Positions 1,594 through 36,906 of a DNA stretch of 64,000 nucleotides are shown here, in pieces. A program made the position numbers and the translations under genes. The notes beneath the pieces are model-generated. The model was not told the origin of the DNA and did no database searches. It was given only the letters and a program-made list of their open reading frames with translations. Source of the DNA: Mesorhizobium sp. M2A.F.Ca.ET.046.03.2.1 (GTDB taxonomy: Bacteria; Pseudomonadota; Alphaproteobacteria; Rhizobiales; Rhizobiaceae); NCBI RefSeq assembly GCF_003952425.1, contig NZ_CP034449.1, positions 2,852,001 through 2,916,000 on the forward strand, read 5' to 3'. Every line of letters begins with the position of its first letter. The stretch's first letter is position 1.

Positions 1594-1598
1594 TAACC

Positions 1599-2204
1599 CT
1601 AATGCGCCGCGCGGCGATAGATCCACAGCTGCGTCGGCGGGATGTTGCGGAAGATGAAATCGAAATGCTCGACGGTGTAGTCGCCGCGCCCCGCCGGGAT
1701 CGGCGACAGCGGGCCGTAGGTCAGCTGCACGATCGGCCGTCCGGCGGGAATGCGGTCGAGCAGGCTTTCGATATAGGCGATGCGCTGGGCGACCGGGAAA
1801 TTGAGCAGCGGCACGCCGGAGACGACCGAATCGAACACCATGTCGCGCTTCTCGCCGAGCGTGGCATTTAGATTGAAGGCGTCGCCCTCGATCACGTTGA
1901 CGCCGGGATAGAGCCCGCGCAGATGGCGCACGAAGTCGGTCGAATATTCGACCGCGTAGAGATTTTCCGGCTTTACACCCTGGGCGAGGATGGCGCGGGT
2001 GATTACGCCGGTGCCTGGCCCCACCTCAAGCACGGGCAGGCCAGATCTCGGATTGACGATCGAGGCCATCTTGCGGGCGGTGACGGAACTGGTGGGGACG
2101 ATCGAGCCGACCGTTTTCGGCTTGTCGATCCAGCCTTTGAAGAACTTCAGCTCGTCGTCGAATTTTTCCGCCAGCGCTTTGCGCAATCCGGGACTACGTG
2201 CCAT
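1599..2204 (-). CDS. pmtA: Phospholipid N-methyltransferase (PmtA type)
   Basis: A 201-residue SAM-dependent methyltransferase. Residues 59-69 (LEVGPGTGVIT) form the SAM-binding motif, preceded by the FFKGWIDKP segment and followed by SGVPLLNFP, as in rhizobial PmtA. This enzyme methylates phosphatidylethanolamine stepwise to phosphatidylcholine at the inner membrane, a lipid important in rhizobia. An alternative TTG five codons upstream exists, but the ATG at 2204 follows GAGGAGA at good spacing. It lies downstream of dnaJ on the same strand. Confidence 0.88.
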   Translation of the reverse strand: MARSPGLRKALAEKFDDELKFFKGWIDKPKTVGSIVPTSSVTARKMASIVNPRSGLPVLEVGPGTGVITRAILAQGVKPENLYAVEYSTDFVRHLRGLYPGVNVIEGDAFNLNATLGEKRDMVFDSVVSGVPLLNFPVAQRIAYIESLLDRIPAGRPIVQLTYGPLSPIPAGRGDYTVEHFDFIFRNIPPTQLWIYRRAAH

Positions 2205-2349
2205 CAGAGCTCTCCTCAATGCTCGCCCCCCGATCCGCTACTTAGCAGGTGGGTGGGACAAGGCAAGGCGTCAAGCTGGCATAAGATGTTGCTGACGCTT
2301 GGGAAGCGGATCGCCCTCCCAGGCCGTGCGCAATGCTGGCGTGTGACGA

Positions 2350-3477
2350 TCAGTTTTCGCCGAACGACTCGAAGAAGTCCTTCATGCGGGCGAAGAAGCC
2401 GCTCGACTGAGGCGAGTTGTCCTTCGAGGAGAGCTGCTCGAACTCTTCCAGCAATTCGCGCTGGCGGCGCGACAGGTTCTGCGGCGTCTCGACCGCCGTC
2501 TGGATGTAGAGGTCGCCGACATTGGCCTGGCGCAGCACCGGCATGCCTTTGCCCTTGAGGCGGAACTGGCGGCCGTTCTGCGTGCCTTCCGGCACTTTCA
2601 CCTTGGTCTGCGTGCCGTCGAGCGTGGTGACCTCGAAGGAGCCGCCAAGGGCGGCCGTCGTCATCGAGATCGGCACTTTGCAATAAAGGTCTGCGCCGTC
2701 GCGCTGGAAGAATTCGTGCGGCTTTACCGCCAGGAAGATGTAAAGGTCGCCGGACGGCCCGCCGCGCAAGCCCGCCTCGCCCTCATTGGCCAGCCGGATG
2801 CGAGTGCCGTCCTCGATGCCGGCCGGGATGTTGACCGACAGCGAGCGCTCCTCGGTGACGCGGCCCTGTCCAGCGCATTTCGGGCAAGGGTCCTTGATCG
2901 TCTGGCCGCGGCCCTGGCATTGCGGGCAGGTGCGCTCGATCGAGAAGAAGCCTTGCGTGGCGCGCACCTTGCCGTGGCCGTGGCACATCGAGCAGGTCAC
3001 CGGCTGCGTGCCGGGCTTGGCGCCGCTGCCGGAGCATTCCGAGCAGGAAATGGAAGCCGGCACGTGGATCTGCGCGGTCTTGCCGGAAAAGGCCTCTTCC
3101 AGCGTGATTTCCATGTTGTAGCGCAGGTCGGCGCCGCGTTCGCGGCCGCCCGACGAGCGGCGCTGGCGGCCACCCATCATGTCGCCGAAAATATCCTCGA
3201 AGATGTCCGCGAAACCGCCGGCGCCGAAGCCGTGCGCGGCGCCGTTCATGCCGCCCTCGAAGGCGGCGTGGCCGAAGCGGTCATAGGCGGCGCGCTTCTG
3301 CGGGTCCTTCAGCGTCTCGTAGGCTTCGTTGATTTCCTTGAACTTGTGCTCGCAGGCATGGTCGCCGGGGTTGCGGTCGGGATGGAACTGCATGGCGAGC
3401 TTGCGAAAAGCGCTCTTGAGTTCCTTTTCGTCGGCGCCTTTTTGCACGCCCAGCGTTTCGTAGAAATCAGCTTTCAT
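2350..3477 (-). CDS. dnaJ: Chaperone protein DnaJ
   Basis: Full-length 375-residue Hsp40. The N-terminal J domain contains HPD at about residues 33-35, followed by a Gly/Phe-rich segment. Four CxxCxGxG zinc-binding repeats follow ([32 protein letters not shown]), then the C-terminal substrate-binding domain. It stimulates DnaK ATPase and delivers unfolded clients. It lies downstream of dnaK on the same strand, but a strong terminator at 3645-3677 separates them, so dnaJ probably has its own promoter in the 170-base gap or depends on read-through. Confidence 0.97.
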
Positions 3478-3644
3478 TTTTTCCCGCTGTCCGGATGCTC
3501 AATGTCTTCAAGCATTGTTGGCGACGTTTGCCGGCATGGCCTTGGATTTAGGAGCGATGTTTCCCGGATGCTAGTACCAAGCAGGCTAGCTCCGGTTTTT
3601 TCCGTCACTTTTTCAAGCAGGCCCGTACTTTTTCAACGAAGGTT

Positions 3645-6080: not shown

Positions 6081-7049
6081 TTAGAGCCCGTTGTCCTTGA
6101 GGATCTTGGCGGCGTTCTCCTTGGTGATCTTCTCCGTCGGCAGCGTGATGGTCTTCTCGACCTTCTCGCCGTTGAGGAACTTGATCGCCTGACGCAGGCC
6201 CTCGGCGCCCGGCGTGACATAGGTGAAGGTCGCGGTCAGCTCGCCCTTGTTCACCATCTGCACGCCTTCGTTGGGCAGACCGTCGATGCCGATGAACTTG
6301 ATGTCCTTCTCGCGCCCGACATCCTTCGCCGCGAGATAGGCGCCATAGGCCATCGGATCGTTGTGGCCGTAGACGAGGTCGATCTTCTCGTTGGTCTTCA
6401 GCGCGTTGGCCATGATGTTGTAGGCCTGGTCCTGCTTCCAGTCGCCCGACTGCTGGTCGAGCAGATACTTGATGCCCGGCTCCTTGTCGGTGAATTCATG
6501 GAAACCGTCATGGCGGTCATGCGCCGGCTGCGTGCCCATGCCGCCCCAGATCTCGACGACGTTGCCGGCGGCCTTGCCCTTGCCGCCCAGAAGCTCGACG
6601 GCATATTCGCCGGCAGCCCGGCCGATCAGCTTGTTGTCGCCACCGACGAACTGCGTGTAGTCCTTGGTGTCGACATTGCGGTCGAGCACGAAGACCGGGA
6701 TCTTGGCGTCGATCGCCTGTTGCACCACGCCGGTGAGGCCGGCCGATTCCTTCGGCGACACCAGCAGCGCGTCGACCTCCTGGCGGATCAGGTTCTCGAC
6801 GTCGGCGACCTGCTTTTCGGTCTTGTCCTCGCCGTCGGTGATGATCAGCTCGACTTCCGGATGCCTGGCGGCCTCGGCGATGATGTCCTTGTTGAACTGG
6901 GCGCGCCAGGGTTCGATGGTCGTCACCTGCGAGAAGCCGATCTTCCACTTCTTGTCCTGGGCAAAGGCATGGTTGCCGGACAGAATTGCGGTGGTCGTCA
7001 GAAGTGCCGCCGCGAAAGTGGCGAGCTTCAGCATTTCACGTCGTTTCAT
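6081..7049 (-). CDS. Sugar ABC transporter, periplasmic binding protein (ribose/galactofuranose type)
   Basis: A 322-residue periplasmic binding protein of the RbsB/YtfQ type (Peripla_BP_4). An N-terminal signal peptide ends near AFA|QD (about residue 30). Family segments include IGFSQV, FVLDRNVD, VVEIWGGMG, YGHNDPMAYGAY and GIDGLPNEG. It should deliver a sugar to the permease encoded 18 bases upstream. It is the last gene of a three-gene operon (ATPase, permease, binding protein) that is divergent from a LacI-type regulator. The sugar itself cannot be told from sequence. Confidence 0.88.
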   Translation of the reverse strand: MKRREMLKLATFAAALLTTTAILSGNHAFAQDKKWKIGFSQVTTIEPWRAQFNKDIIAEAARHPEVELIITDGEDKTEKQVADVENLIRQEVDALLVSPKESAGLTGVVQQAIDAKIPVFVLDRNVDTKDYTQFVGGDNKLIGRAAGEYAVELLGGKGKAAGNVVEIWGGMGTQPAHDRHDGFHEFTDKEPGIKYLLDQQSGDWKQDQAYNIMANALKTNEKIDLVYGHNDPMAYGAYLAAKDVGREKDIKFIGIDGLPNEGVQMVNKGELTATFTYVTPGAEGLRQAIKFLNGEKVEKTITLPTEKITKENAAKILKDNGL

Positions 7050-7067
7050 GGTCCTGTTTCCTCCGGA

Positions 7068-8359
7068 TTATAGAGACGAGGTCTCCTGTGACGGCCGCTT
7101 GGCCGCGGCCGTTTCCTTTTGCGCCGCCCGTCCGCCGGGCAGGCGCAGATAGCTTAAAATGTCGCCGGCGTTGCGCTCCTGAACGAGCACCGTGCCGATG
7201 ATGATCGCCCCCTTCAGCACCAGCTGAAGGTTCGAATTGATGTTGTGCAGCTGCAGGATGTTGGACAGCAGTCCGAAGATCAGCACGCCGCAGAAGGTGC
7301 CGATCAGGCTGCCGCGCCCGCCCATCAGGCTGGTGCCGCCGATAACCACGGCGGCGATGGCGTCGAGCTCCAGCCCCGCGCCGGCATCCGGCTTGCCTTG
7401 CCGGTATTGCGCCACGTAGAGCGCCGCCGCGATGCCGGCGAGCAGGCCGGACACCGCATAGGTGGCGATCTTGACGCGTCCCGCCGCGATGCCGGAAAGC
7501 CTGGCCGCCTCCTCATTGCCGCCGATGGCGTAGACATAGCGGCCGAAGGGCGTGAAGCGCAGCACCGCGCCGTAGATCACGACCGCGCCGAGGAAGAACA
7601 GGCCTGGCATCGGCACGACGCCGAACACCAGCGAGCGCAGGATCTCGAACTCTTCCGTGGCGTTGGAGCCGGTATAGACCGGCAGCACCGCATTGTTCTG
7701 GCCGGCGGTCAGCCTGGCGATGCCGAGCGCTGTCACCATCATCGCCAGCGTCACGATAAAGGGCTGCAGGCGGCCGGCGACGATGATGAAGCCGTTGATG
7801 GTGCCGAACAGCAGGCCGACGCAAGGCGCCACCAGAAGCACGCCGAGCACGCCGAACTTGGTCTCGACCTGCGGCAGCAGGTACCACAGCGAGAGGCAGC
7901 AAAGGATCACGCCGACCACGCCCGGGATGACCAGCCCGCGCGTCGTGTCCAGCCGCACGTCGCGGCCGGCTTCCGCGCCGGCGCGGGATTTCTGGATGTT
8001 GAGCAGGATGAAGCGGGTGGCGAGTGCGCCGAGGCTGAGAGCCACCAGCGCGGTCGTCGGCACGCCAAGCGCCGCCGACGGCGTGATGCCCGGCACGGTG
8101 AGCAGCATGGCGCAGACGACCGAGCAGATCGCCATCAGCGAGCCGACGGAAAGATCGATGCCGCCGGTCAGGATCACCGCCGTCATGCCGGTGGCGATGA
8201 GGCCGGTGGTCGACACCTGGCGCAGCACGTCGAGCAGGTTACCGTAGGACAAGAAGATGTTGTTGCCCTTGGAGCTGATCGGCGAGCCGAACACGCCGAT
8301 CAGGAAGATGGCGATCAGCCCCCAGTAAAGTTTGGTGCGGGAGACAAGGCTGATGAGGT

Positions 8360-8363
<4 letters not shown>
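7068..8363 (-). CDS. Sugar ABC transporter permease (RbsC family)
   Basis: A 431-residue inner-membrane permease of the branched-chain/ribose family (BPD_transp_2). It has many hydrophobic helices and the family segments GGIDLSVGS, YAIGGNEEAARLSGI and GGTSLMGGRGS. It is longer than E. coli RbsC (321 residues), mainly through an extra loop after the third helix near residues 120-170. Its ATG overlaps the stop of the ATPase gene by 4 bases, which indicates translational coupling. Confidence 0.9.
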
Positions 8364-9940
<1,577 letters not shown>

Positions 9941-9987
9941 GACAAAGGACGGCCTCCCTCCGTCGTCTTCGGCGACTTGAACGCTAA

Positions 9988-10001
9988 TCGAAACGTTTCG
10001 A
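9988..10001. promoter_or_regulatory. LacI-family operator upstream of the ABC operon
   Basis: TCGAAACGTTTCGA is a perfect 14-base palindrome with the central CG and AAACGTTT core typical of LacI/GalR-family sites. It lies 48 bases before the ATPase start codon, between this gene and the divergent regulator. A second, partly matching site is at 10097-10108. Confidence 0.7.
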
Positions 10002-10096
10002 ACGTGTCAAGCGCCTATCTGTTCTCTGAGGATTGATGCATTTCAATTCTTGCGAAAAATGCCGGGTTTACGTAGGTTTAGCCAGATAAGGGCGGC

Positions 10097-10108
10097 TAAA
10101 CGTTTCGA
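10097..10108. promoter_or_regulatory. Second LacI-family operator, just before the regulator gene
   Basis: TAAACGTTTCGA shares the AAACGTTTCGA half and core of the palindrome at 9988-10001. It ends 2 bases before the regulator ATG, overlapping where ribosomes would bind, which suggests autoregulation. Confidence 0.6.
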
Positions 10109-10110
10109 AA

Positions 10111-11178
10111 ATGACGGCGTCAGAGCAGAAAAAACAGCGGAAATCCACGGCGCCGACCATGCTGCATGTGGCTGAGGCGGCGCGTGTGTCCGTAGCCACG
10201 GTCTCTGCATTGCTCAACGGTACCGCCACCGTCAGTCCCGAGCTTACGCAACGCATCGAGCAGGCGATCCGCGACATCGGCTACAAGCGCAATGCCATCG
10301 CCCGCAGCCTGAAGATGGGCACCACGCGCACAATCGGCCTCACCGTGCCGCACATCACCAACCCGTTCTTCACCGATGTCGTCTCGGTCATCCAGCAGGC
10401 CTTCGACCGCGCCGGCTATGCCGTCATGCTGTGCTGCACCGACGAGGATCTGAACACGCAGGACGAGCAGATCCGCCTGCTGCTCGACCGCATGGTCGAC
10501 GGGCTGATCGTGGCGCGCGTCGGCGACGGCGGCCTTCTGAAGAGCATCGTCGAGGACACCAATGTGCCGGTGGTGCTGCTCGACCGCCTTTGCGAAGGCG
10601 TCGACACCGACGCGGTGGTGCTGGACAACCAGCGTGCCGTGTTCGACGCCGTCACCTATCTAATCCATCTTGGCCATCGGCGCATCGGCTACATCACCGG
10701 CACGTCCGACATATCTCCCATGCATGACCGCATGATCGGCTATCGCGAGGCGCTGCAGGCGGCCGGCCTGCCGGTGGCGGAGGAACTCATACGCTCCGGC
10801 AATTTCCACGAGATCGACGGCTACAACGCCACCATGCAGCTCTTGTCGCTGCACGACCGGCCAAGCGCGATCTTCTCGGCCAACAACCCGATGGTGATCG
10901 GCACGATGAAGGCGATCCGCGACATCGGCCTCTCTTGCCCCGAGGACATTTCGGTCGCCTGCTTCGACGACTTTCCCTGGTCGGACGTGTTCGTGCCGCA
11001 GCTCACCACCGTCGCGCAGCCGGTGCAGGCGATCGGCGAGCAGGCGGCGAACCTCCTGCTCGACCGGCTGGCCGGCAACCGCGACGCGCCGCCGCGCAAG
11101 CTGGTGCTGAAGGGCCGGCTGATGATCCGCAATTCCTGCCGGCCGCTGGGCGCGATCGCGCAGAGCGTCAGCGCGTAG
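10111..11178 (+). CDS. LacI-family transcriptional regulator
   Basis: A 355-residue repressor. The N-terminal helix-turn-helix (MLHVAEAARVSVATVSALLNG, about residues 17-37) is followed by a hinge helix and a periplasmic-binding-protein-like effector domain (IGLTVPHITNPFF onwards). It is divergent from the sugar ABC operon, and two AAACGTTT palindromes lie in the gap, so it most likely represses that operon and itself until the sugar binds. Its 3' end overlaps the convergent phosphatase gene by 11 bases. Confidence 0.92.
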   Translation: MTASEQKKQRKSTAPTMLHVAEAARVSVATVSALLNGTATVSPELTQRIEQAIRDIGYKRNAIARSLKMGTTRTIGLTVPHITNPFFTDVVSVIQQAFDRAGYAVMLCCTDEDLNTQDEQIRLLLDRMVDGLIVARVGDGGLLKSIVEDTNVPVVLLDRLCEGVDTDAVVLDNQRAVFDAVTYLIHLGHRRIGYITGTSDISPMHDRMIGYREALQAAGLPVAEELIRSGNFHEIDGYNATMQLLSLHDRPSAIFSANNPMVIGTMKAIRDIGLSCPEDISVACFDDFPWSDVFVPQLTTVAQPVQAIGEQAANLLLDRLAGNRDAPPRKLVLKGRLMIRNSCRPLGAIAQSVSA

Positions 11179-11968
11179 CTTCGAGAGCCTCTGCGCACAG
11201 CGCCTGCAATCTCGGGAAGATGCGGCTGCCGCCGGTGATCACCCGCGTGCCCTGGCCGAGCACCGTCTTCGGATCCGCTCTGAGCACCGTGCCGCCGGCC
11301 TCTTCGACCAGCAGCATGCCGGCGAGGCAATCCCAGGCGTTCATGTGCTCCTCGACATAGCCGAGCAGCCGGCCGGACGCCGCATAGGCGAGCATCAGCG
11401 CTCCGGAAGCATTGCGGTAGAAGACGCCGCCCTCCGCCATGATCAGGCTGATGAGAGTGACGACATTCTTGGTCGAGGCGCGGTTGGACAGCCCGGTGCC
11501 GACGGCGCCCTCGGAAAGCGACGCGGCATTGCTGGTCTTGATCGGCTTGCCGTTGAGGAAGGCGCCGCCGCCCAGGCGGCCGTAGAACGTCTCGTCGGTC
11601 GAAGGCTCATGGATGACGCCGACCACCGTCTCGCCGTCCTTGGCGCAGGCGATCACCACGCACCAGGCGGGAATGCCGCGCACGAAATTGGCGGTGCCGT
11701 CGATCGGGTCGATCACCCAGACATGGCCGGTTGTTCCGGTCACCGCAGCATGCTCCTCGCCGATGATGCCGTCTTGCGGATAGGCCTCGGCGATCGCCGC
11801 GCGGATGAACAGCTCGACCTCGCGGTCGGCTTCCGAAACCAGGTCCTGGTGACCCTTGCTCTCGACGGCCAGGTTGTCGAGGTCGCGGAAATATTTCAGC
11901 CCCAGCTCGCCGGCGCGGCGCGCCAGGTCGATGGCAAAATGCATGCGGTCGTCGAGATCTTTGGTCAC
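11168..11968 (-). CDS. Inositol monophosphatase family protein
   Basis: A 266-residue Mg-dependent phosphatase of the IMPase/CysQ/SuhB superfamily. Metal-binding residues are visible as GEE (residues 70-72), DPIDGTANF (87-95) and AWDCLAG (211-217). Substrates in the family include inositol phosphates, histidinol phosphate and PAP, so the substrate is open. The start is read as GTG at 11968; an ATG eight codons later (11944) is possible. It is convergent with and overlaps the LacI-type regulator. Confidence 0.85.
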   Translation of the reverse strand: MTKDLDDRMHFAIDLARRAGELGLKYFRDLDNLAVESKGHQDLVSEADREVELFIRAAIAEAYPQDGIIGEEHAAVTGTTGHVWVIDPIDGTANFVRGIPAWCVVIACAKDGETVVGVIHEPSTDETFYGRLGGGAFLNGKPIKTSNAASLSEGAVGTGLSNRASTKNVVTLISLIMAEGGVFYRNASGALMLAYAASGRLLGYVEEHMNAWDCLAGMLLVEEAGGTVLRADPKTVLGQGTRVITGGSRIFPRLQALCAEALEATR

Positions 11969-12040
11969 GGGGAACTCTTGGCTGAGAGGGACATCTGCGC
12001 CCTTAACAGACCAATATGTCAGGCGAAAGTGACAGCGCGA

Positions 12041-13039
12041 TCACGCCGCCTTGGACATCGATTTGTGCACGTCGGCGAGAATTTCGTAGGAGCGCACGCG
12101 CGCAGCGTGATCGAAGATCTGCGCCGTCACCATCAATTCGTCGGCGCCGGTGCGGCGGATGAAGGCGTCGATGCCCTGGCGCACCGTCTCCGGCGAACCG
12201 ATGACGGCGCAGGACAGCGCCTGGGCAAGCATGGTTTTCGCCATAGGATCGAGATCGCGGTCGTAATTCTCGACCGGCGGCGGCAATTGCCCCGGACGGC
12301 CGCTGCGCAAATTGACGAAGGCCTGCTGCAGCGAGCTGAACAACAGCTTCGCCTCAGCGTCCGTCGGCGCGGCGGAGACATTGAGGCCGAGCATGACATA
12401 AGGCTTGTCGAGCTGCGCCGACGCCTGGAACCGCGTGCGATAAACCTCCAGCGCATGGTCGAGCTCGGCCGGCGCGAAATGCGAGGCGAAAGCGTAGGGC
12501 AGGCCGAGAAGCGCTGCGAGCTGCGCGCCATAGAGGCTGGAGCCGAGTATCCAGACCGGCACGGTCTGGCCTTCGCCCGGCACGGCACGGATGCGCTGGC
12601 CTTCCTCGGCCGGCTGGAAATAGCCCATCAGCTCGACCACGTCCTGCGGGAAATTGTCGGCAGACTCCAGGTTGCGGCGCAGCGCCCGCGCGGTCAGCAT
12701 GTCGGTGCCCGGCGCGCGGCCGAGTCCGAGGTCGATGCGGCCGGGAAAAAGTGCCGCCAGCGTGCCGAACTGCTCGGCGATCACCAGCGGCGCATGGTTG
12801 GGCAGCATGATGCCGCCGGCGCCGACGCGGATTGACTTGGTGCCGCCGGCGACATGCGCGATCACGACGGATGTCGCGGCGCTCGCGATGCCCGGCATGT
12901 TGTGGTGCTCGGCCAGCCAGTAGCGCTTGTAGCCCAGGCGCTCGGCATGGCGGGCGAGGTCGAGCGAATTGGCGAGCGACTGCGAAGCGGTGCTGCCTTG
13001 GGTGATCGGCGACAGGTCGAGAACCGAAAGGGCGGTCAT
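12041..13039 (-). CDS. LLM class flavin-dependent oxidoreductase
   Basis: A 332-residue luciferase-like monooxygenase of the MsnO8/YhbW type. Visible family segments are [11 protein letters not shown] near residues 41-51, [13 protein letters not shown] and GLGRAPGTD. These TIM-barrel proteins use reduced FMN to oxidise small organic substrates; the substrate is unknown. Its stop and start lie close to the N-acetyltransferase gene, which ends 3 bases upstream, so the two are probably cotranscribed. Confidence 0.87.
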
Positions 13040-29828: not shown

Positions 29829-30473
29829 TCACACCGGCAACTCGGCCAGCCAGCCATTCGAGTGCGCGAAGCGCACAATGGCCGCCCGCGAGCGGAGCTC
29901 GAGCTTCTCGGACGCCCTTGTGCGATAGGTTTCGATCGTCTTGATGCTGAGGTTGAGTCGGGACGAGATTTCCTTGTTGCTGTAGCCGAGCGCCACCAGC
30001 TGGATCACCGACCGCTCCCGTTGGCTGAGATTGCCCGGATCGCCCTGCGGGGCGCTGCGCGGGCTCAATATGCGCGCCGCGAGTGCGGGATCGACATAAT
30101 TGTCGCCGGCCAGCACGCATCGGATGGCCTGCAGCAGGTCCGTCGCGGTCGAGCGCTTGACCACGAAGCCGCGGCCACCCGCCGCAAGCACCTGGCGCAG
30201 GCAGCCGGGGTCCTCATGCGCTGTCAATGCTATGCAGCTGACCTCGGGAAAGCGCTCGCCGAGCCTTTCGATCAGCACGACCCCGCTGTCGCCGGGAAGC
30301 GATATATCGACCACGGCGATATCGGGCAGCGTCTTGCCGATCCCTTCAAGGGCATCCTCGGCATTCCCGGCCAGGCCGACGACCGTCAGATCGTCCTGGC
30401 TGTTGATCATCGCCCCGACCCCCGACAGCATGATCGGGTGGTCGTCGACCAGAAATATCCGCCTGCAGCGCAC
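29829..30473 (-). CDS. NarL/FixJ-type response regulator
   Basis: A 214-residue regulator. The receiver domain has the phosphoacceptor Asp56 in VVDISLPG, with DDH at 10-12 and KRS near residue 108. A LuxR-type helix-turn-helix follows (LSQRERSVIQL to KTIETYRTRASEKL, about 149-195). The start is GTG at 30473, preceded by GGAGG. The kinase upstream on the same strand, 363 bases away, is its probable partner. Targets are unknown; the repeat-protein genes divergent from the kinase are candidates. Confidence 0.92.
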   Translation of the reverse strand: MRCRRIFLVDDHPIMLSGVGAMINSQDDLTVVGLAGNAEDALEGIGKTLPDIAVVDISLPGDSGVVLIERLGERFPEVSCIALTAHEDPGCLRQVLAAGGRGFVVKRSTATDLLQAIRCVLAGDNYVDPALAARILSPRSAPQGDPGNLSQRERSVIQLVALGYSNKEISSRLNLSIKTIETYRTRASEKLELRSRAAIVRFAHSNGWLAELPV

Positions 30474-30836: not shown

Positions 30837-31514
30837 TCAATGTGCCAACGGCACATCCGCATAAACGGCAGTTCCTTTCATCGTGGCGCTTTCGACCGTC
30901 AGTTCACCACCGACCAGCGCCAGCCGCTCCCGCATTCCGGCAAGTCCCAGATGGCCCGGACCGGGGTCGGCGCGGCCGTCAAAGCCGCGGCCATCATCCT
31001 CGATTGTCAGGCGCATCCGATCGTCCTGAATATGGGCCGTTACGCTTACCCGGCTCGGCAGGGCATGCTTGCCGATATTGGTGATCGCCTCCTGCGCGAC
31101 ACGATAAAGCGTGAGCGCGGTCTCTGCGGGCAGCGGGTTCGAAAGGGCGTCGAGATCCATCTCGCATGGAATGCCGAGCTGGCTGCAAAGCATTGTCGTC
31201 AGATCCTCGACCGAAGCGCGCAGGCCGAGACGATTAAGGTCGGCGGGCCGCAGGTTCCAGGCAGCGTCATGCACCTTGGCGCTGAGCCGGTCGATAAGCA
31301 TCGCGGCGCGCTCGAGACGGCCGTCCATCTCCTGCGTGCCGGCACGTACGTTGTGCAACTCCAGCGCGACACTGGCCAGCATCTGGCCGAGGTCGTCATG
31401 CAGCTCCCGCGACAGGCGCAGGCGCTGCTCTTCCTGCACGGCGATCAAGCGCCGCGCAAGCCTGCGGCGCAGGGCCCTATCGTCCTTACCTGTGGTCATA
31501 CCCGCCCACATCAA
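30837..31514 (-). CDS. Soluble sensor histidine kinase (HisKA_3 type)
   Basis: A protein of about 225 residues. EEQRLRLSRELHDDLGQMLASV holds the phosphoacceptor His38 of NarX/DegS-type kinases; ATP-binding boxes are seen in EAITNIGKHA, EDDGRGFDG and GHLGLAGMRERL. No transmembrane or sensory domain precedes the dimerisation helix, so the signal must come from a partner or the cytoplasm. The start is uncertain: 31514 has AAAGG near; 31499 and 31529 are alternatives. Probable partner of the regulator at 29829. Confidence 0.87.
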   Translation of the reverse strand: MMWAGMTTGKDDRALRRRLARRLIAVQEEQRLRLSRELHDDLGQMLASVALELHNVRAGTQEMDGRLERAAMLIDRLSAKVHDAAWNLRPADLNRLGLRASVEDLTTMLCSQLGIPCEMDLDALSNPLPAETALTLYRVAQEAITNIGKHALPSRVSVTAHIQDDRMRLTIEDDGRGFDGRADPGPGHLGLAGMRERLALVGGELTVESATMKGTAVYADVPLAH

Positions 31515-31793
31515 CCTTTCTCTTCCCATTGCCGTCGCGAGGATCGCAAGCCACCCGCGGGTCGGCGAGAAAAGGCATGAATGTTTGCGCAGTATACACC
31601 CGCCAGATGCCTTTATGCCTGTCAGTTTTTTCCTGATTGCTTCAACTTTTCCTGACATGGGGATCAGCAGAAAAACCGACAACCTCCGCTGATCAGCCCG
31701 AATGTATCGCCGCTATTTCTGCGTGCATCCTTCAAGCGTCCTCCCGGTCATCTTGAACTGCCCGGGAAGCTCAACGCAACGAAGGAGAACGTC

Positions 31794-32209
31794 ATGAGAT
31801 CATCCTGGCCGCGGCCGTACTGTCGGCTCTGACCGGTACGGCATCCGCGCTTTCGATCGGCAGCGGCAATGGCAACGGCAACGGCAATGTCGGCGTCGGC
31901 AACGGCAACGGCAACGGCAACGCCAATACCGGCGCCTACAACGGCAACTTCAACGGCAACGGCAACTTCGGGTTCGGCAACGGCAACGGGAACGGCAACG
32001 GCAACTGGGGCGCCTTCAACGGCAACTACAACGGCAATCTGAATGCCGGCGTCGCGAACGGCAACGGCAACGGCAACGGCAATTTCGGCCTCGGCAACGG
32101 CAACGTGAACGGCAACGGGAACTGGGGCCTCGGAAACGGCAATGCCAACGGCAACGGCAACTGGGGCGCCGGCAACAACGGCAACGGAAACGGCAACGCC
32201 AACCACTAG
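31794..32209 (+). pseudogene. Secreted Asn/Gly repeat protein 1, frameshifted at codon 2-3
   Basis: GAAGGAG precedes the ATG at 31794, but that frame stops after 12 codons. One missing A after base 31797 would join ATG-AGA to an open frame running from 31799 to the TAG at 32207. The repaired product of about 138 residues has a signal peptide (IILAAAVLSALTGTASA) and eight perfect-length 13-residue units of the form GNxNGNGNxGxxN, then an NGN tail. Function unknown. The frameshift may be a sequencing error or a phase-variation-like disruption. It is the first of three related genes. Confidence 0.7.
31865..32176 (+). repeat. Eight tandem 39-base units in Asn/Gly repeat gene 1
   Basis: The units are exactly 39 bases each and encode 13 residues. 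Position 10 is always Gly, and Asn is fixed at 2, 4, 8 and nearly always 13; positions 9, 11 and 12 vary (V, T, F, W, A). The DNA is dominated by GGCAAC. Confidence 0.85.
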
Positions 32210-32404
32210 CGCCGACCAACCGCCAGCGTCGCCAAGTCGACGCTGACGCCTCTGGGATCGCCGAGCCACGCGCCCGTCCCCCGCGCAAAGGCTATCGCGA
32301 CATGTCGCCGGCGGTCCCAGTCCTTTTCGAAGAATGGTCCTTTTCGAAACGGGGGCCAATTTCGAAAGCCCAATTTCAAGCTTAGCCATGGAAGGAGCTC
32401 GCAG

Positions 32405-32857
32405 ATGAAACGCTACGTCATACCGGCGCTATGCCTGGGGTTGTTGAGTGCAACCGCGGCGAAGGCCGACACCACGACGGGCAGCCAGGCCTTCGGCATG
32501 TCGGCTGTCCAGGCGGCGGTCGGCAAATACGGCCAGGCCATCGGCTCGGACGTCAGGAGCATGAATCCGCTCGGTAACTTCGGCGGCAATCTCGGCTACA
32601 AGAACAGCGGCACCGGCAATGTCGGCGCCTTCAACAGCGGTACCGGCAATGTCGGCGCGTTCAACGGCAACAACAACACCTCGGCGACGAGCGGCAACGG
32701 CAACATCGGCTCCTTCAACGGCAACGGCAACACCGGCGAATACAACGGCAACAGCAACATCGGCGCCGGCAATGGCAACTTCAACGGCGGATCGTTCAAC
32801 GGCAACGGCAATGTCGGCGCCTTCAATGGCAACTTCAACGGCCGGGGGAACCGCTGA
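32405..32857 (+). CDS. Secreted Asn/Gly repeat protein 2
   Basis: A 150-residue protein. A signal peptide (1-21, ending near AKA|D) is followed by a short non-repetitive part (22-65) containing GMSAVQAAVGKYGQ. From about residue 67 come two 10-residue SGTGNVGAFN units and then 9-residue units of the form GNxNxGxFN to the end. A strong ribosome-binding site (AAGGAGCT) precedes the ATG. The pattern recalls the xNxGx repeats of mycobacterial MPTR/pentapeptide proteins but I know no characterised homologue. TGA overlaps the ATG of gene 3. Confidence 0.85.
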   Translation: MKRYVIPALCLGLLSATAAKADTTTGSQAFGMSAVQAAVGKYGQAIGSDVRSMNPLGNFGGNLGYKNSGTGNVGAFNSGTGNVGAFNGNNNTSATSGNGNIGSFNGNGNTGEYNGNSNIGAGNGNFNGGSFNGNGNVGAFNGNFNGRGNR

Positions 32858-33345
32858 TGACCGGCCTGAAATCATCCGGGCCCGCCCGGCCCCGCGAGCG
32901 TCGGGTGGCGGCGAGGCTGCTTGGTGGCAACGGCCTCGCGCTCGGCACCCTGCTTGCCGCGTTGCTTGCCGCCGATGCCTCGACCCTGGTCAGGATTGCC
33001 GATCTTCCAATCGGCGCCGGTGTCGCCAACGGCCTTGGCAACACCGGAAATTTCAATGGCCTTGGCAATACCGGACATTTTAACGGCAATGGGAATGCCG
33101 GCAACTTCAACGGCAACGGCAACAGCGGCAATTTCAACGGCAACGGCAATGCCGGGAGCTTCAGCGGCAATTTCAATGGCGGCAGCTTCAACGGCAACGC
33201 CAATTGCGGCAACGGCCACGGCAACGGCTACGCGTCCGACGGCAACGGTACGGGAGCAGCCGGCAATCCGGACCTCTGCCGGTTCTTGAAGGAGCTGAAC
33301 GGCCGGCTGGGACTGCCGCCCGGCACGATTCCGGATTTCGATTAG
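32857..33345 (+). CDS. Secreted or anchored Asn/Gly repeat protein 3
   Basis: A 162-residue protein. A basic N-terminus (MTGLKSSGPARPRERR) and hydrophobic segment (about 20-40) suggest a signal peptide or anchor. Residues 59-121 are seven 9-residue units, consensus GNGNxGxFN. A Cys lies in the last unit and another in the C-terminal tail (NPDLCRFLKELNGRLGLPPG), which could form a disulfide. The start overlaps the stop of gene 2 (TGATG), so translation is coupled. Function unknown. Confidence 0.82.
   Translation: MTGLKSSGPARPRERRVAARLLGGNGLALGTLLAALLAADASTLVRIADLPIGAGVANGLGNTGNFNGLGNTGHFNGNGNAGNFNGNGNSGNFNGNGNAGSFSGNFNGGSFNGNANCGNGHGNGYASDGNGTGAAGNPDLCRFLKELNGRLGLPPGTIPDFD
33031..33219 (+). 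repeat. Seven tandem 27-base units in Asn/Gly repeat gene 3
   Basis: Seven units of 27 bases encode the 9-residue repeat. The first two begin GLGNTG, the others GNxNxG. The 27-base unit equals the 39-base unit of gene 1 minus one GNxN block (12 bases), so the arrays probably share an origin. Confidence 0.8.
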
Positions 33346-35296: not shown

Positions 35297-35470
35297 ATGA
35301 GCAGGTTCATAAGAAAAATATCGCGCCGCGTGATCCTGCAGGCCTTGATCACGTTGCCGGCACTGTCGCTGTTCCGCAACCCACCGGCCCCCGCCAACCC
35401 TGACGAGATCGACCGTGATGAAATCGTCGAGATCAACGGATGGATCCTGCGGCGGAGCGACCTCGCATGA
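35297..35470 (+). CDS. Small Tat-signal-like protein preceding the GMC oxidoreductase
   Basis: A 57-residue protein. ISRRVILQALITLPALSLF (about residues 7-25) resembles a twin-arginine signal peptide, followed by a short acidic tail (DEIDRDEIVEINGW). Its TGA overlaps the ATG of the GMC gene by 4 bases. Small Tat-bearing subunits accompany several membrane-bound GMC dehydrogenases, whose large subunits lack their own signal and are exported with the small one; that role is inferred here. The frame is open upstream but GAAAG and the signal favour this start. Confidence 0.65.
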   Translation: MSRFIRKISRRVILQALITLPALSLFRNPPAPANPDEIDRDEIVEINGWILRRSDLA

Positions 35471-36906
35471 TCTTCGACAGCTACGAAGCCTATAAGCAGG
35501 CCGGCTTCAAACCCAGGGCCTGCATCCTCGGCTCCGGGCCGGCCGGCACCACGATCGCCAGGAAGCTGGGCGCCGCCGGCATCCCGGTCGTCGTCCTGGA
35601 GGCGGGCTCGCGCGAGTTCAGCGACGAGTCGCAGGATTTCTACCGCGGTAAGACGGTTGGCGATTTCTACTTCGACCTCGACATCACTAGGCTGCGCTTC
35701 ATGGGCGGCTCGTCCAATCACTGGGCCGGCTGGTGCCGCGTGCTCGACAGCCAAGACTTCGAGCCCAAGGCCTGGGCGCCGGACACCGGCTGGCCGATCA
35801 GCCGCGCCGATGTTGAGCCCTAATCTGAAGGAAGTCCACGACATCCTCGAGCTTCCCGACTTCCGGCCCGACGTGCCGGTTTCGGACGACATACGCTGGG
35901 TGCAATTGATCAAGAGTCCTGCGGTTCGCTTCGGCGAGAAATTCGCCGACGAGCTCGACCGGAGCAAGAACATCGCCGTCGTGCTCAACACCTATGCGAC
36001 CGAGCATATCGGCGACGGCAAGCGCGTCACCGGCGCGAAGCTGTGGTCGAACGGCCAGGACGCCGGCACTTTCAGCGCGGACTATTTCGTCACCTGCACC
36101 GGTGGGCTGGAAAACTCGCGGCTGCTGTTGTGGTCGAATGAGCGTTCGAATGGCGGCGTGGTGCCCAACGCGGCGGCGCTCGGCCGCTACTGGATGGAGC
36201 ATCCGACCTTCGAGGGCGGCAACGCCATTCTCGCCAGCTATTCGGAGTTCGAGGTCGACGCCTCGAACGAAGCCTTCTTCTCGCCGACGCTTGCCGCGAT
36301 GGAGCGGCTGCAGATCATGAATTTCGGCATCCGCCTGATCGAGAGCCCCTATCCCAATGTCAAGAAGTTGATCGCCGACCTCGCCTGCACCGCGCCGAAC
36401 ATGGCGGAGTGGATGTCTTCGCAACTGGACCAGAGGCTGCGTTGCGCCGCCCAGCTCTATGTCGCCTGGGAGCAGGCGCCACTCGCTTCGAACCAGATCG
36501 AGCTGTCGAAGACCGACGTCGATCACGCCGGCGTTCCGCGCATCGAACTGCACTGGAAGAAGTCGCCGCTCGAGCGCCGCACCCTGCTCGAGGGGCTGAA
36601 GCTCTTCGGCACGACGCTGGCGCAGAAGAATCTCGGCCGCGTCCGCATCGACGACTGGATCAGCAACGGCGGCGATTACCCGACCAACGAGGAGACCGCC
36701 GGCCACCATCATATGGGCGGCACCCGCATGGGCACCGATGTCTTGAAGAGTGTCGTCGACGTCAATTGCAAAGTGCACGGCATGGACAATCTCTATGTCG
36801 GCGCCTCATCGGTGTTCTGCACGTCGGGCCAGTGCAACCTACGACGACCATCACCGCGCTCGCCTGCCGCTTGGGCGAGCACCTCGGCAAGCTGATCGCC
36901 GTCTGA
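35467..36906 (+). pseudogene. GMC family oxidoreductase, with two frameshifts
   Basis: A product of about 479 residues is recovered by reading three frames in turn. Part 1 (35467 to about 35821) has the FAD-binding ILGSGPAGTTIARKLG and MGGSSNHWAG. An extra A near 35822 makes a stop (CCC-TAA; expected Pro-Tyr). Part 2 runs to about 36841 and contains HHHMGGTRMG. A missing C in AACCT (expected AAC-CCT) shifts the last part, PTTTITALACRLGEHLGKLI, which ends at 36906. The shifts cancel. The family oxidises alcohols or sugars. Sequencing errors or recent decay are both possible. Confidence 0.8.

Follow-up and report, generated by a model that had tools for sequence, protein, structure and literature searches.

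The window, that is, the whole 64,000-nucleotide stretch of DNA analysed here, comes from a 7.37 Mb genome assembled as a single contig, whose closest sequence relatives are Mesorhizobium. Open-reading-frame translations confirmed what a first-pass annotation had described, namely three consecutive plus-strand frames encoding Gly-Asn repeat proteins, and we refer to genes 1, 2 and 3 as A, B and C (Table 1). The stop codon of B and the start codon of C overlap by one base. Divergent from A lie the genes of a short histidine kinase (HK) and a response regulator (RR), matching the pattern of a HisKA_3 and HATPase_c kinase paired with a response regulator that carries a LuxR-type domain (Pfam). 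HK likely starts at 31529 or 31499, the mechanical ORF reaching 31682. Pfam found no sensor domain in HK, and NCBIfam gave nothing over cut-off among 15 HK matches or the best 25 of 100 RR matches. The first-pass annotation missed this two-component system, together with a conserved upstream site, a frameshift in gene 1 and copies on phage contigs, all of which are described below.

Table 1 Coordinates of the features of the Gly-Asn repeat locus in the window.
Feature	Position	Strand	Evidence
RR, LuxR-type response regulator (Response_reg + GerE)	29829..30473	-	Pfam PF00072 7.2e-22, PF00196 1.4e-17
HK, short histidine kinase (HisKA_3 + HATPase_c)	30837..31529	-	Pfam; start candidates; 37/38 B-positive genomes
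16-bp conserved site between HK and A, proposed RR binding site	31620..31635	+	pattern search
ATG expected to start gene A, not in the repeat frame	31794..31796	+	comparison with relatives
Gene A: repeat frame, with a frameshift near its start in the strain in hand	31799..32209	+	translation, genus orthologues
A: eight 13-residue units GNxNGNxNxGxxN	31865..32176	+	translation, periodicity
Gene B, 150 aa, signal-peptide-like N-terminus, 10- and 9-residue units	32405..32857	+	
Conserved central part of B, remotely similar to Pentapeptide_2 (PF01469)	32585..32719	+	
Gene C, 162 aa, N-terminal hydrophobic segment, 9-residue units	32857..33345	+	
C: six 9-residue units	33031..33192	+	
C: conserved C-terminal tail with one Cys	33268..33342	+	

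The repeat periodicity of A, B and C is not due to chance. Self-match at lag 13 in gene A was 0.631 versus 0.291 ± 0.041 in shuffles (reached by 0 of 5000), and at lag 9 it was 0.750 versus 0.237 in gene C (0 of 5000) and 0.388 versus 0.197 in gene B (1 of 5000). The count of eight 13-residue units originally given for gene 1 holds, all eight fitting GNxNGNxNxGxxN, but the form GNxNGNGNxGxxN proposed with it fits only six. Seven GNGNxGxFN units had been claimed for gene 3; its translation contains six full 9-residue units of a looser form, two of which match exactly, while gene 2 does consist of two 10-residue units followed by 9-residue units, as first described. The DNA of gene A is low in complexity, with a hexamer period of (GGCAAC)n.

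As sequenced, gene A is broken at its start in the strain in hand. The ATG at 31794 meets a stop after 12 codons in a frame other than that of the repeats, and the repeat frame holds no ATG, GTG or TTG between the preceding stop and the array. Compared with the nearest relative (L032), the window is 4 bases shorter at 31797, and genus orthologues of A start in frame at the ATG corresponding to 31794. A is intact in all 29 of the other genus loci fetched (L003-L031; 27 recognised automatically, L007 and L023 by eye), and B and C are intact in the strain in hand. Downstream, a GMC-type oxidoreductase (35440-36895) is split over two frames; several other relatives have it as a single 479-residue open frame. 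Because the window also differs from L032 in this oxidoreductase, by one inserted base (35818) and one deleted base (36841), the indels in the two genes reflect either residual assembly errors or several broken genes in the strain. With A broken as sequenced, the module in the strain in hand may be inactive or altered.

Across relatives, the gene set and synteny of A-B-C are conserved, and a survey of the neighbourhood, as had been suggested at first pass, found A intact in the 29 of 29 loci above. The A protein is 138 aa long in 26 of the 27 automatically recognised orthologues, and that of L007 is shorter by three whole 13-residue units, a whole-unit change. All 189 distances from one recognised spacer to the next in A equal 13 (27 distinct orthologue sequences), 66 of 67 in C equal 9, and those in B are 5, 9 and 18. 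Amid the Gly-Asn background, spacer positions 1 and 3 of A are mostly hydrophobic (mostly F, A, W, V, T or M at position 1; A, L, V, I or F at position 3). In 13 A proteins, taken from Mesorhizobium and out as far as distant MAGs, the Asn/Gly pattern is near-invariant, the first units showing few exceptions. Within the repeats, the median pairwise dN/dS was 0.153 among 26 A sequences and 0.248 among 16 B sequences, the pairs not being independent; the set comprised sequences of the commonest length, leaving out one A and six B of other length as well as loci where the search pattern failed to recognise the gene. By these comparisons, A-B-C is a conserved operon under purifying selection. Export is supported by the signal-peptide-like N-termini of B and of intact A orthologues (assessed by eye), and more weakly for C; the signal peptide or hydrophobic N-terminus originally attributed to every gene fits B and intact A, less so C, and does not apply to gene 1 as sequenced.

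Family searches, which the first-pass annotation had proposed for Pfam, PF01469 and the curlin families, gave no clear match to a characterised family for the three repeat proteins. Pfam returned nothing for window A, B or C at E<=1, NCBIfam yielded matches far below cut-off only, and neither database has a family that covers A or C. The suggestion that MPTR-type pentapeptide proteins are the nearest relatives holds in part for B, since seven of the 13 B proteins match PF01469 at E values of at most 10 (best 1.5e-5), although window B itself scores 7.7 bits where the curated cut-off is 26.4. It fails for A, with matches in 0 of 13 A proteins. In precomputed annotation, PF01469 is assigned to some relatives of B.

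We noticed that the kinase and the repeat genes are inherited together. B is present in 38 of 146 genus genomes and HK (E<=1e-40) in 37, all of them among the 38 with B; each of these 37 genomes has one HK match on the contig of B, within about 3 kb. Fisher's exact test on these counts gives 6e-34, a number that overstates the association because the genomes are related. In the single B-positive genome without HK (G090), locus L111 lacks RR, HK, A and B, and just a broken C lies between the usual flanking genes. L058 retains a deletion scar (7591-8093): between intact neighbours, a piece of RR adjoins the final 31 residues of C. Stronger evidence for linkage than the Fisher test comes from three genomes (G129, G046 and G120) in which the module lies elsewhere in the genome, with a longer kinase that is 42-44% identical, and still comprises HK, RR, A, B and C. 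Counting against a strict linkage of HK and repeat genes, a second kinase-regulator copy in G132, one of the 37 genomes (L122, contig C495, 4782-6919), which carries the 16-bp site, has no Gly-Asn frame in 8.7 kb, the contig ending about 1.8 kb beyond the site. Judged from this gene linkage, the HK/RR pair belongs to the A-B-C module.

The 16-bp site, TGTC[AG]GNNTTTTCC[CT][GC], occurs once in the window, 174 bases upstream of the ATG of A. The genus loci fetched cover 29 of the 37 other B-positive genomes plus six more that are divergent or weak (G075 and G110 were left out), and the site lies upstream of A, once each, in 29 of 29 of the former (L003-L031) and in 5 of 5 further modules (L107-L110, L112); it is absent from L111 and from the twelve loci examined outside the genus. 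A narrower pattern, TGTCAGNTTTTTCCYG, has a single match in the 7.37 Mb of the own genome with up to 1 mismatch. We infer that the site may be the target of RR.

Outside the genus, surveys returned matches in 13 of 397 genomes of the order, 4 of 385 of the class and 8 of 398 of the phylum, with at most 10 first-look candidates scored per genome, the own genome counted in each survey and genomes overlapping between surveys. Among the matches inspected, Gly-Asn clusters occur in G264, G340, G292, G431, G289 and G187 (A only, at a contig end), and G655 holds longer, distant relatives; the candidates in G473 and G170 proved to be unrelated Gly-, Asn- or Met-rich proteins, and G270, G511, G524, G884, G974 and G987 were left out of inspection. 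Two genomes of Methylobacterium (L055, L060) and two MAGs (L059, L063) have clusters of three or more genes; in another MAG (L062) the contig breaks off after A and part of B. Of the 12 loci outside the genus, 11 have a LuxR-type regulator close to the cluster: nine by Pfam (L055, L059, L060, L063, where it lies about 2.8 kb past the cluster, L098, L099, L100, L101 and L102) and two by tblastn with the L098 regulator (L103, 89% identity; L062, 29%), tblastn finding none at L106 of G655. The twelve loci are not independent, with L098, L099 and L103 from one genus, L101 and L102 from another, and L055 and L060 from a third. The G655 locus (6189-12095) encodes five tandem longer Asn/Gly repeat proteins, in a genome from the same class and another order. 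Most of these proteins have an N-terminal motif of ITIN type and finish at the C-terminus with, or close to, PGLP/TLP. Genes of HlyD type (L055 1962-5364, L060 4666-6237) and, in L055 only, MacB type are divergent from the Methylobacterium clusters. The L059 cluster is flanked by a phage terminase large subunit and a radical SAM/SPASM protein (1598-3508 and 8865-10391).

A fourth gene, D, accompanies the clusters of L055 (10319-10957), L060 (13876-14472), L062, L098 (6695-7318) and L099. It encodes a signal-peptide-like start, a Gly-Asn stretch and a conserved Cys-containing C-terminal part, for which no Pfam family scored over cut-off. A search of the own genome gave no match to D, a result to which the search tool attached a warning. 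The D copy on a phage contig (L114, 4628-5125) matches phrog_20531, a family of unknown function.

AlphaFold2, run in line with the structure prediction proposed at first pass, placed a strand every 13 residues in A, but with a mean pLDDT of 64.9 (pTM 0.52; 13 sequences), and strands at 10- and then 18-residue steps in B (mean pLDDT 61.2), with block means of 80-86 over residues 61-110; Foldseek found no PDB match at E<=0.001. The initial suggestion of a regular solenoid therefore gains from the regular strands modelled in A and B and is weakened by the low to moderate confidence and by the tendency of AlphaFold2, described by Pratt and colleagues (PMC11795689), to give confident but unrealistic solenoids for perfect repeats. 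The same authors report that four methods agree on a solenoid for PF01469 and PF07012, and this agreement for PF01469 makes the predicted fold of the centre of B more credible than that of A.

We give about an even chance to the reading that A-B-C is an exported module under two-component control, whose products stack as a beta-solenoid coat or fibre outside the cell. The fold, function, export, subunit roles, polymerisation and coat role that we infer would combine as follows. In a five-gene module with RR-HK divergent from A-B-C, the two-component system would switch on the A-B-C operon through the 16-bp site, and the products would be small Sec-exported Gly-Asn repeat proteins. A, usually with eight full units of 13, would be the probable main building block; B, with its conserved pentapeptide-like centre, might serve as a minor or starter subunit, and C, with its Cys-containing tail, as an end or anchor subunit. 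On the outside of the cell, the proteins would most likely assemble, as stacked Asn-ladder beta-solenoids, into a coat or fibre. No description of the Gly-Asn module turned up in our literature searches; it would add an exported repeat-protein module with its own regulators to the soil and plant-associated Hyphomicrobiales. Having one site, one operon and one kinase/regulator pair, the module is unusually easy to test by deletion.

The products might instead be a disordered, hydrated secreted polymer, whose Asn/Gly repeats bind water and protect against desiccation, osmotic stress or freezing, rather than a folded fibre; we consider this unlikely. The analysis yielded no evidence for the ice or desiccation role speculated on at first pass. 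The repeats are hydrophilic and nearly uncharged (0 acidic residues in window A beyond residue 22 of its repeat frame, and 1 in window B from residue 57), and both the low AlphaFold2 confidence in A and the solenoid bias noted in PMC11795689 would fit such a polymer. However, it would have no obvious need for the conserved unit length, unit number and hydrophobic spacers, and the centre of B weakly resembles PF01469, for which PMC11795689 reports that four predictors agree on a solenoid.

Phage-borne copies raise the question of why phages would carry up to four small exported repeat proteins. A-B-C-D lies on two IMG/VR contigs, L114 (IMGVR_UViG_3300032205_000007, 42,957 bases) and L120 (IMGVR_UViG_3300048939_000043, 44,111 bases), and A and B lie on a third, L115 (IMGVR_UViG_3300037119_007752, 5,611 bases). 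L114 also carries genes for a helicase, an exonuclease, an Enc34-type ssDNA-binding protein, a DNA polymerase, an amidase and virion, tail and tail-fibre proteins, while L115 adjoins head-closure, neck and tail-terminator genes. Near the L120 copy are genes for a ribonucleotide reductase and a DNA-polymerase exonuclease subunit; its own genes alone are insufficient proof of phage origin, and the IMG/VR classification is taken as given. In these three stretches, tblastn found no kinase, regulator or L098 LuxR-type protein. Two B proteins and one D protein had no match in 50,697 annotated phage records, and one B protein had none in 72,556 plasmid records. The viral counts are lower bounds, because scanning viral sequences with the A alignment returned no relative, even though three contigs contain A.

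These copies would suit a surface shield against phages, in which the coat blocks adsorption and phages carry the cassette to exclude competitors, for which there is a precedent in curli protecting E. coli from T7 (reported in PMC9778933). With just three contigs, no match in the annotated phage records, and chromosomal copies whose two-component system points to a host role, we regard the shield as quite improbable. The fuller proposal, in which the Gly-Asn module represents a new kind of Asn-ladder coat outside the cell, its lineage distinct from that of curli, run by bacteria through a dedicated two-component system, and in which a phage-carried A-B-C-D cassette re-coats the host and excludes rival phages, seems to us quite unlikely.

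A role in binding minerals or metals at the surface, on the model of the NG domain in nacre pearlins, appears very improbable. Pearlin, N14 and N16 share a Gly-Asn alternating stretch within a secreted matrix protein, and PMC7677314 presents the NG-repeat domains as hypothesised to regulate crystal growth. The likeness is one of composition only: pearlins are animal proteins with acidic regions, conserved Cys and a short NG stretch, whereas the A and B repeats are almost without acidic residues. Finally, that the array is neutral simple-sequence DNA produced by (GGCAAC)n slippage in an open frame, as its low-complexity hexamer period and the frameshifted A in the strain in hand might suggest, is scarcely credible given dN/dS of 0.15-0.25, fixed lengths, co-inheritance with the kinase and 29 of 29 other genus loci intact.

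Among known repeat proteins, the beta-helices of Antigen 43 type show 7% identity and a generic beta-helix likeness, at a Z level that according to the search tool may reflect just an arrangement common among repeats, and Pfam gave no match to an autotransporter barrel. The centre of B shares the XNXGX pentapeptide pattern of the PPE-MPTR and Pentapeptide_2 (PF01469) proteins (PMC4858275), although the units of 13 and 9 in the module are not multiples of 5. Neither the window proteins nor 13 A and 13 B proteins match a PE or PPE domain in Pfam.

The closest parallel in design may be with curli. CsgD, the curli regulator, is LuxR-type, and a LuxR-family regulator encoded with subunit genes is likewise found in the window RR and in the 11 of 12 outside loci, a likeness of LuxR type only. 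Like curli, the module would comprise a major and a minor repeat protein, small and exported, of similar length (CsgA of Enterobacteriales has about 152 residues; PMC3521004). The curlin repeat, as given in PMC10192328, combines N-x-hydrophobic-x-hydrophobic-x-Q strands with X-G-X-X arcs; the repeats of the module also contain Asn, and its X-G-X-X spacers resemble the arcs. In contrast, the module has no Gln ladder and its unit is 13 or 9, not about 23 residues. The curlin repeat PF07012 was absent from window A, B and C (Pfam E<=1) and from 13 A and 13 B proteins (E<=10), the CsgG exporter PF03783 had 0 matches in the own genome versus 4 of 14 control genomes, and no outer-membrane exporter for the module was identified. 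In the AlphaFold2 model of A, xGxx falls in strands and not in arcs, a placement that counts against a literal curli arrangement. An Asn strand joined to xGxx can nevertheless be read in the Gly-Asn unit, and for this reason we call the module curli-like in design; the likeness would be one of logic and not of ancestry.
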